Positions 58,268 through 59,222 of a DNA stretch of 64,000 nt are shown in pieces. The translations under genes and the position numbers were made by a program. How positions within the stretch are numbered: position 1 is the first letter of the stretch; every line of letters begins with the position of its first letter. The DNA comes from Veillonellaceae bacterium. Its GTDB lineage: Bacteria > Bacillota_C > Negativicutes > UBA1444. Under the pieces are notes generated by a model that ran no database searches, had not been told where the DNA came from, and saw only the letters and a list, made by a program, of their open reading frames with translations. The DNA lies in contig JAAZNU010000020.1 in the NCBI GenBank assembly GCA_012798135.1, forward strand, positions 1 to 64,000. The letters run 5' to 3'.

Positions 58268-58358
58268 TGGCGGAGAGTGTGGGATTTGAACCCACGAGGC
58301 GCTTATCACGCCTACACGATTTCCAGTCGTGCTCCTTCGGCCGCTCGGACAACTCTCC
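58268..58358 (-). tRNA. tRNA-Ser (anticodon GGA)
   Basis: Class II tRNA with a long variable arm. Acceptor GGAGAGT/ACTCTCC pairs fully, anticodon loop CTGGAAA gives GGA, T-arm GGTTCAAATCC is standard, and CCA is encoded. Reads UCC/UCU serine codons. Confidence 0.95.
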
Positions 58359-58410
58359 GTGTCGAAATCAAATCATGGTAGCCTATATCGAAATGTCGAA
58401 AATTTGCAAA

Positions 58411-58500
58411 TGGCGGAGAGGGTGGGATTCGAACCCACGGTGCCGGTTAAGGCACACTTGATTTCGAGTCAAGCACCTTCGACCTCTCGGACACCTCTCC
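58411..58500 (-). tRNA. tRNA-Ser (anticodon CGA)
   Basis: Class II tRNA. Acceptor GGAGAGG/CCTCTCC, anticodon loop CTCGAAA gives CGA, long variable arm, T-arm GGTTCGAATCC, and encoded CCA. Reads UCG serine codons. It begins 10 bp downstream of the tadA stop codon. Confidence 0.95.
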
Positions 58501-58510
58501 ACAGTCGGGA

Positions 58511-58981
58511 TCAAGGTTTATCGGCAGCCGCAGAACGGCGTCTGTCGCGAAAAAAAGCCTGCATCGCTGCAGCGCACTCATCTTGCCGGACCCCCGCCGT
58601 CACCGTCAACCGGTGATTCAACGCCGGGTGCTGAACCACATTGAAAATCGATTCCACCGCTCCGGCCCTAAAATCCGGGCTTCCATAAACCAGCCGGTCG
58701 ACCCGGCTCATCACCAGGGCTCCCGCGCACATCGGACACGGCTCGATCGTAACATACAACGTTGCGCCGGTCAGCCGCCAGCGCCTAAGCTTGCGGCAAG
58801 CCTCCCGGATCACGAGCATTTCGGCGTGGGCCGTGGCGTCATGGTCGGTCTCGCGGCGATTATGCGCCTGAGCGATCACTTCGCCGGCAAATACCAAAAC
58901 CGCGCCGATCGGCACTTCGCCTTCCGCCGCAGCCTGCTCAGCTTCCGCCAGCGCCAGTCCCATAAATTCGAAGTCGTTCAC
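58511..58981 (-). CDS. tadA: tRNA-specific adenosine deaminase
   Basis: A 156-residue zinc deaminase converting A34 to inosine in tRNA-Arg(ACG). Zinc and proton-shuttle motif HAE (H52, E54) and PCPMCAG (C82, C85) are complete. Length and start (FMGLALAEAEQAAAEGEVPIG) suit TadA. GTG start with only a weak ribosome binding site. It lies inside a tRNA operon, between tRNA-Arg(CCT) and tRNA-Ser(CGA), 28 and 10 bp away. Confidence 0.95.
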   Translation of the reverse strand: MNDFEFMGLALAEAEQAAAEGEVPIGAVLVFAGEVIAQAHNRRETDHDATAHAEMLVIREACRKLRRWRLTGATLYVTIEPCPMCAGALVMSRVDRLVYGSPDFRAGAVESIFNVVQHPALNHRLTVTAGVRQDECAAAMQAFFRDRRRSAAADKP

Positions 58982-59009
58982 GGCCCGGCCACCACTTTAG
59001 CGTAATTTC

Positions 59010-59086
59010 TGGTGCGCCCGGGAGGACTCGAACCACCGGCACGCGGTTTAGGAAACCGCTGCTCTATCCACCTGAGCTACGGGCGC
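59010..59086 (-). tRNA. tRNA-Arg (anticodon CCT)
   Basis: Acceptor GCGCCCG/CGGGCGC, D-arm GCTCAGGTGGATAGAGC, anticodon loop TTCCTAA gives CCT, T-arm GGTTCGAGTCC, encoded CCA. Reads AGG arginine codons. Confidence 0.95.
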
Positions 59087-59102
59087 GTTATGGATAAATA
59101 AA

Positions 59103-59179
59103 TGGCCTGCCCGGCAAGATTCGAACTTGCGACCTCTTGATTCGTAGTCAAGCGCTCTATCCAGCTGAGCTACGGGCAG
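59103..59179 (-). tRNA. tRNA-Arg (anticodon ACG)
   Basis: Acceptor CTGCCCG/CGGGCAG, anticodon loop CTACGAA gives ACG, T-arm AGTTCGAATCT, encoded CCA. A34 must be deaminated to inosine to read CGU, CGC and CGA. The enzyme for this, TadA, is encoded 122 bp downstream in the same operon. Confidence 0.95.
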
Positions 59180-59193
59180 ATACTGCATTGACT

Positions 59194-59222
59194 ATATTAC
59201 CACAATGCCTGGTGGTAGTCAA
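59194..59222 (-). promoter_or_regulatory. Promoter of the tRNA-tadA operon
   Basis: TTGACT (59217-59222) and TAATAT (59194-59199), 17 bp apart on the minus strand, 15 bp upstream of tRNA-Arg(ACG). Near-consensus and well placed for stable-RNA expression. Confidence 0.85.

Follow-up and report, generated by a model that had tools for sequence, protein, structure and literature searches.

In a 64,000-nucleotide stretch of a Veillonellaceae bacterium genome (assembly GCA_012798135.1, contig JAAZNU010000020.1, positions 1 to 64,000; hereafter the window), the genes for tRNA-Arg(ACG), tRNA-Arg(CCT), TadA, tRNA-Ser(CGA) and tRNA-Ser(GGA) follow one another head to tail on the minus strand within 912 bases (58268–59179). 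The account considered probable here is that these five genes form one transcription unit, the remnant of an old cluster, and that an element carrying a tyrosine integrase gene recombined into tRNA-Arg(ACG), restoring the 5′ half of this tRNA and supplying the promoter, termed P′, of the whole unit.

The tRNA–tadA unit and the element in front of it

The gene order, the common strand, the positions and the gaps of 10–52 bp described in an earlier note on this DNA were borne out by ARAGORN for the tRNAs and by a family model for TadA. From tRNA-Arg(ACG) to tRNA-Ser(GGA), the intergenic gaps measure 16, 28, 10 and 52 nt in order. The open reading frame (ORF) between the Arg and Ser genes matches the TadA model NF008113 with 178 bits (cut-off 150), and its translation contains the HAE and PCPMC motifs; its product is predicted to deaminate A34 of tRNA-Arg(ACG). 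The single promoter-like site in front and a terminal hairpin suggest, from sequence, that the five genes are transcribed together. The hairpin behind tRNA-Ser(GGA) has 16 bp, with −31.6 kcal/mol for 63 nt and a z score of −6.7; its T-run is poor and it is absent from the list of the consensus terminator scan. A separate promoter and terminator isolating tadA had been named earlier as a refuting result; the consensus scan found no promoter-like site within tadA or in the spacer between tRNA-Arg(CCT) and tadA, and its one weak inner site (TCGACA-16-CATGAT, 9/12) separates tRNA-Ser(CGA) from tRNA-Ser(GGA). Processing at the ends of the tRNAs would free all four of them and leave the tadA mRNA from between two.

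P′ ends 14 nt ahead of tRNA-Arg(ACG). The earlier note had spoken of one strong promoter and treated it as native. The promoter-like site is indeed in place, but its pattern alone is weak evidence, because the scan found 5 such sites per 4 kb where 2.2 were expected (standard deviation 1.6). The point at which homology to native DNA ends and the occurrence of the same sequence at an element end in another genome speak against a native origin; P′ appears to belong to the integrated element.

The window DNA upstream of the operon is that of an element, containing in turn a terminator, a tyrosine integrase gene, a gene for an excisionase-like helix-turn-helix (HTH) protein and genes for RadC and ERF-type proteins. 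Two features of 5′-restoring tRNA-gene islands are present at the junction: a tyrosine integrase gene lies near it, and an intact tRNA is rebuilt there with the island on the 5′ side.

Two genomes, G001 and G010, the only members of G001's taxonomic order in the collection used, were compared with the window. G001 is a Sporomusaceae assembly containing locus L001, with a TadA 79% identical to that of the window. Homology between the window and G001 runs to 59180, 1 nt before tRNA-Arg(ACG). Upstream of 59180 no window match to G001 was found, and the window's homology to the native DNA of G010 likewise ends at 59180. The order in G001 is signal recognition particle (SRP) RNA-Ser-Ser-tadA-Arg-Arg-promoter-ppx, with no element, and the SRP RNA gene lies ∼160 bp behind tRNA-Ser(GGA), compared with 13.6 kb in the window. 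G001 and G010 share DNA across the native promoter into ppx, a PepT-like peptidase gene and dinB. This native promoter reads TTGACT-17-TATCAT or TATTAT and is followed by a common leader ending TTTGGATTCT.

G010 also contains the element. Its integrase is 98–99% identical to that of the window and is in two pieces at an assembly gap. Contig C10 of G010 aligns to window 63917–59157 with 92.8% DNA identity over 4765 nt, with 10 differing positions in the last 700 nt; it includes P′ and breaks off after base 23 of tRNA-Arg(ACG). A second contig, C74, holds the native promoter and a complete tRNA-Arg(ACG), followed by the spacer and 26 nt from the start of tRNA-Arg(CCT), and 120 nt of this are identical to the window; after two N, tRNA bases 24–47 (the anticodon arm) follow, joined to element DNA with an intrinsic terminator and a single copy of the repeat present twice in the window. 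At this far element end, where a displaced 5′ fragment would be expected, C74 has tRNA bases 24–47 with element DNA, the native 5′ end lying nearby and the NN gap between them; the window stops short of this end. Whether integrated or excised in G010, the element carries P′ together with tRNA bases 1–47, exactly the part of the tRNA that it has in common with the host.

The proposed event is recombination of an integrative element in tRNA-Arg(ACG), most likely at the anticodon arm. The element would restore the 5′ half of the tRNA and not the 3′ half, unlike most tRNA-gene islands, and because it restores the 5′ half the present promoter of the operon would come from the element. P′ would accordingly be an element-derived promoter driving tRNA-Arg(ACG), tRNA-Arg(CCT), tadA, tRNA-Ser(CGA) and tRNA-Ser(GGA). 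The right end of the element has the terminator behind the integrase gene, the arm-like repeats, and then P′ with the tRNA half. The native promoter would be expected at the far element side, transcribing a tRNA half into a terminator; the terminator at the left end, as seen in G010, would stop such transcripts.

Several points weigh against this account. C10 breaks at tRNA base 23 and the C74 piece starts at base 24 after the NN gap, so the G010 assembly is blind to whether the element is integrated, excised or in a mixed state, and the shared block of bases 1–47 is pieced together from two contigs. The far element end lies beyond the window. A TadA search of G010 at an E-value of 1e-25 gave no match, nor did a 6.7-kb window stretch around dnaX, so G010 supports the element ends and not the whole locus. 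Only two instances of this integrase and element end are known.

The NN gap and the contig break at the G010 junctions would also leave room for an element that merely lies upstream, with P′ native to the lineage and no crossover in the tRNA. This alternative is unlikely: G010 has P′ with the element as well as the native promoter beside ppx, the element DNA at the other end adjoins the anticodon arm of this very tRNA, and the window's homology to native DNA stops at the first base of the tRNA. That the window junction is an assembly error is highly improbable, since a separate assembly (92.8% identity) shows the same element end entering the same tRNA, and no point in favor of such an error was found.

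A perfect operator-like dyad, TACCAC-N8-GTGGTA, lies within the spacer between the −35 and −10 hexamers of P′. The dyad is the sole window match at up to two mismatches, with at least one match in 43 of 100 shuffled windows, and a dyad of this kind occurs in 3.1% of shuffled P′ copies; the native promoters of G010 and G001 are without such a dyad. It is a hint, no more, of control over P′. An element regulator bound to the dyad, by which mobile DNA would set the supply of four tRNAs and of the inosine-34 enzyme, is a speculative and rather doubtful extension; if true, host decoding would be tied to the state of the element.

Promoter-like sequences ahead of tRNA-Arg(ACG) were also identified by eye in L001, L011, L012, L015, L017 and G010 (TTGACT followed at a distance of 17 or 18 bases by TATCAT, TAAGAT or TATTAT), with variable spacing to the tRNA. 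tRNA-Ser(GCT) occupies the promoter position ahead of tRNA-Arg(ACG) in Carboxydocella (L052). In L011, L015 and L017, inverted TGTGGATAA/TTATCCACA repeats are found ∼100 nt ahead of tRNA-Arg(ACG), just upstream of the operon promoter; they resemble DnaA boxes.

The integrase had no match among viral contigs, neither did either element end when used as an exact pattern there, and window 59180–61100 had no match in phage records. Other integrase relatives, at 33–37% identity, were found at 11 loci in 10 genomes besides G010 (380 searched); nine of these loci are without a tRNA in the flanks read, and L274 and L279 contain tRNAs. A 1737-residue DEAD-box helicase with an MrfA zinc domain, which may be element cargo, is encoded beside a Prim-Pol/D5 primase at L268:2790–8000 (minus strand), on that side of the G010 junction which belongs to the element.

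Table 1. Positions of the operon, the element end and the downstream SRP RNA gene in the window
Feature	Position	Strand	Basis or remark
SRP RNA gene (ffs), usual downstream neighbor of the operon	44526..44625	-	13.6 kb from the operon in the window
Hairpin 3′ of the last gene, likely terminator	58217..58254	-	Folding
tRNA-Ser(GGA)	58268..58358	-	ARAGORN
tRNA-Ser(CGA)	58411..58500	-	ARAGORN
tadA, GTG start, 156 aa	58511..58981	-	ORF and family model
GGTGG, weak Shine-Dalgarno sequence, 7 nt before GTG	58989..58993	-	GGTGA in L001, L009, L011, L012, L015, L017, L044
tRNA-Arg(CCT)	59010..59086	-	ARAGORN
tRNA-Arg(ACG), predicted TadA substrate	59103..59179	-	ARAGORN
tRNA-Arg(ACG) 5′ half, bases 1–47, identity block common to element and host, probably rebuilt from the element side	59133..59179	-	G010 contigs
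Promoter P′, TTGACT-17-TAATAT with TG before −10, probably supplied by the integrated element	59194..59222	-	Pattern and same sequence at G010 element end
Operator-like dyad within P′	59198..59217	.	Pattern search
Two repeats GTAGCCCGGNNNNGTAGCCCAATTT, likely integrase arm sites	59403..59459	-	One further copy at the other element end in G010
Intrinsic terminator behind the integrase gene, insulating P′	59602..59639	-	Terminator scan
Tyrosine integrase of the element	59795..61051	-	Protein families; 98–99% identical in G010
Excisionase-like HTH protein of the element	61079..61294	-	Protein families

Related integration systems and mixed operons

The usual tRNA-gene island shares the 3′ half of the tRNA with its host (PMC10865867). 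Islander counts 159 of 3919 islands in tRNA genes with a displaced 5′ fragment (PMC4383910). These 5′-fragment islands resemble the window element in having a tyrosine integrase, a tRNA identity block, an anticodon-arm site and a tRNA rebuilt at one end; the window differs in that its rebuilt tRNA is the first gene of an operon that also contains three further tRNAs and tadA, and the whole unit would change its promoter. A review states that nearly all bacterial tRNA-gene islands leave the rebuilt tRNA with the host promoter and that bacterial cases of a tRNA expressed from the promoter of an element are rare (PMC8371274). Such expression is found with the pTN3-like integrases and is proposed here for the window; these integrases are archaeal and their gene is divided into int(N) and int(C), whereas the window system is bacterial, with a whole integrase gene and a terminator behind it (PMC8371274). 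In tRNA-dependent lysogeny, as in the window, the element provides for an intact tRNA once it has integrated, but a short core there fails to rebuild the tRNA and a phage tRNA substitutes for it, whereas the tRNA of the window is rebuilt (PMC10865867). Membership of the window element in that class was considered and set aside; its tRNA is complete at the junction, with a 47-nt shared block reconstructed from two G010 contigs. The arrangement in the window is real and old, and with good probability its promoter belongs to a 5′-restoring element, a known but rare kind. For the whole unit, four tRNAs together with a tRNA-modifying enzyme, the host promoter appears to have been exchanged, and one such event could alter the decoding of Arg CGN codons together with several Ser and Arg codons.

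The E. coli thrU-tyrU-glyT-thrT-tufB operon is a mixed tRNA–mRNA operon, in which the gene for a protein partner of tRNA is part of a tRNA precursor. Unlike tufB, the tadA gene of the window stands between tRNAs, and both ends of its mRNA would be set by tRNA processing. The B. subtilis order yaaJ(tadA)-scr-dnaX-yaaK-recR resembles that of the window in placing tadA before the SRP RNA gene and dnaX; the accessible part of that account names no tRNA genes beside yaaJ (PMC10454642), and the window has its ffs gene at a distance of 13.6 kb. Neither the takeover of such an operon promoter by an element nor the tRNA–tadA order described here was found in an earlier report in the literature searched, from whose coverage subscription journals were mostly missing.

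Conservation of the cluster and the place of tadA among tRNA genes

Three sets of loci were used. The phylum sample comprised 199 genomes, 179 of them with TadA; 150 places were listed, 90 loci were read and 80 had both 800-nt flanks. The 90 loci consist of 30 returned directly and 60 taken as about every second remaining row (G315 was skipped for too little flank), and the E-value order of the listing favors good matches. The Negativicutes class set contained the 30 best-scoring loci of 278 genomes with a match among 300 and is mostly one lineage. The named set consisted of 80 relatives and is heavy in Veillonella and Selenomonas.

The window operon reads as a shortened form of an old Bacillota cluster, serS-Ser(TGA)-Ser(GCT)-Arg(ACG)-Arg(CCT)-tadA-Ser(CGA)-Ser(GGA)-SRP RNA. 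The commonest phylum form, Ser(TGA)-Ser(GCT)-Arg(ACG)-Arg(CCT)-tadA-Ser(CGA)-Ser(GGA), was present at 16 of the 90 loci, and 11 of the 90 had no same-strand tRNA within 800 nt of tadA. The arrangement is not due to chance, because the same order recurs across the phylum sample. A conserved tRNA–tadA–tRNA order had been suggested as a check, and the outcome is mixed. Arg(ACG)-Arg(CCT)-tadA-Ser(CGA) was present at all eight Pelosinus-family loci read (2 of the 10 genomes were without a TadA match at an E-value of 1e-30), and both Arg genes upstream with Ser(CGA) downstream at 26 of the 80 phylum loci with full flanks. The order is patchy, however, among the named relatives: both Arg genes precede tadA in only 6 of 80, including one from outside the Negativicutes (Carboxydocella, L052), and Ser(CGA) lies within 800 nt downstream of tadA in 42. 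By NCBI family, Arg(ACG) was upstream in 4/9 Sporomusaceae, 0/32 Selenomonadaceae, 0/20 Veillonellaceae and 1/10 relatives with no family named.

At the outer edges of the cluster, an upstream ORF was present in 9 of ten loci: four encode SerS, confirmed for all four proteins scanned, that of L139 is SerS-like by eye, and different genes occupy this place in L180, L206, L211 and L218. The SRP RNA gene was sought in 20 of the 90 phylum loci and in L270 (from G001), L009 and L044; it was found downstream in 5 of the 20 as well as in G001, L009 and L044, and directly behind Ser(GGA) in the latter two.

Why tadA has stayed among tRNA genes is probably best explained by legacy, an ancestral tRNA-Ser/Arg cluster with serS and ffs that decays from the outside in, without a special tie between tadA and its substrate. 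Across the 80 full-flank loci the genes adjoining tadA were kept best, with Ser(CGA) at 64, Arg(CCT) at 45, Ser(GGA) at 39, Arg(ACG) and Ser(TGA) at 29 each and Ser(GCT) at 27. A TadA tree built from 88 rows of the phylum sample plus 15 hand-picked ones (103 in all) has at least 21 changes in the presence of Arg(ACG). The wide retention of the order, seen in the six-tRNA form above, stands against pure legacy and suggests some benefit of the whole unit.

The earlier note had proposed instead that the dose of TadA is tied to that of its substrate, with tadA and tRNA-Arg(ACG) co-transcribed because the enzyme must match the tRNA. The two genes do lie in one cluster in the window, at the eight Pelosinus-family loci and at 29 of the 80 phylum loci. 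Dose coupling would make Arg(ACG) the best-kept neighbor, and with 29 of 80 loci it is therefore not supported. Arg(ACG) is retained less than the non-substrates Ser(CGA) and Arg(CCT): Arg(CCT) occurs without Arg(ACG) at 19 loci and the reverse at 3 (sign test p = 0.0009, kinship ignored). Other copies of Arg(ACG) also argue against coupling. In a search of twelve genomes, with 30 matched loci read, a second Arg(ACG) away from tadA was found in Pelosinus JBW45 (G003) and, within a tRNA array, in Carboxydocella (G005); Sporomusa ovata (G002) has at least three, none of those by tadA. In three genomes, G306, G454 and G373 (L134, L175 and L176), Arg(TCG) takes the position before tadA, and Arg(ACG) belongs to a different tRNA cluster. 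G001 has one Arg(ACG) among the loci read, at tadA. A published B. subtilis study reports tadA to be dispensable (PMC10454642), a further point against a required match. Dose coupling is accordingly regarded as improbable, and outside-in loss of a legacy gene order fits the data better.

In G001, two further Ser-type tRNA matches (L270:11760–11979, minus strand) share the strand of tRNA-Arg(ACG) and lie ∼9 kb upstream of it; they may be the Ser genes that are absent from its copy of the old cluster.

Boundaries of tadA and the DNA downstream

GTG at 58981 is the first possible tadA start after an in-frame TAA, and GGTGG precedes it. The earlier description of a GTG start with a weak ribosome-binding site stands to this extent; an ATG at codon 7, preferred by the automatic scorer, is also a possible start. 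A dependence of tadA translation on tRNA processing, likewise proposed earlier, is not borne out by folding, which predicted start-region accessibility in the window of 0.14 without and 0.13 with the upstream tRNA. Across eight loci no consistent effect of the tRNA was seen, and L009 alone gave a large one (0.41 without, 0.11 with). Masking of the Shine-Dalgarno sequence by the 3′ end of tRNA-Arg(CCT) (TGGTG against CACCA) was also tried and rejected, as shuffled leaders often matched equally well (p = 0.196 in the window; p < 0.05 at 3 of 47 phylum loci). Leaders that follow an Arg tRNA contained GGTG in 30 of 47 cases, compared with 17 of 43 for the remaining leaders (Fisher p = 0.034, kinship ignored).

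At the other end of the gene, the tadA frame of many relatives ends 10 to 56 nt inside tRNA-Ser(CGA). Among loci with Ser(CGA) within 400 nt, this overlap was found at 15 of 74 phylum loci, 22 of 29 in the class set and 15 of 40 named loci; some genera occur in more than one set, and a single lineage makes up most of the class set. Many, not all, of L022–L045, L079, L102–L131, L138–L140, L153, L155, L159 and L160 overlap, as do many of L169–L171, L189, L190, L194, L200 and L209; in L153 the frame extends 14 nt into the tRNA before it meets a stop. Over the 87 rows of the TadA tree with Ser(CGA) nearby (19 overlapping, 68 apart), the state changes at least nine times, by gains and losses. One overlapping transcript could not give both a full mRNA and a full tRNA, because the RNase P cut would remove the stop codon. 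The window has a 10-nt gap and no overlap. The phylum-wide order serS-tRNA-tadA-tRNA-SRP RNA, with its overlapping and non-overlapping lineages, offers a natural series in which the release of an mRNA from its flanking tRNAs can be studied.

In the spacer between the Ser genes, good promoter-like sequences were seen by eye in L009 and L044 (TTGCCA-17-TATAAT and TTGTAA-17-TATAAT), where Ser(GGA) may have its own promoter. The ∼13.5 kb between the SRP RNA gene and tRNA-Ser(GGA) in the window (44690–58163) hold genes of PAS/SpoIIE, GGDEF, TauE, DUF2207 and GGDEF-EAL type, with no integrase among six proteins scanned from this stretch; dnaX comes after the SRP RNA gene. Antisense ORFs run across the tRNA-Ser genes at 58267–58461 (plus strand) and nearby, with motifs such as GFEPTRRLSRL and GWDSNPRCRL, presumably the common signature of spurious ORFs above tRNA genes.
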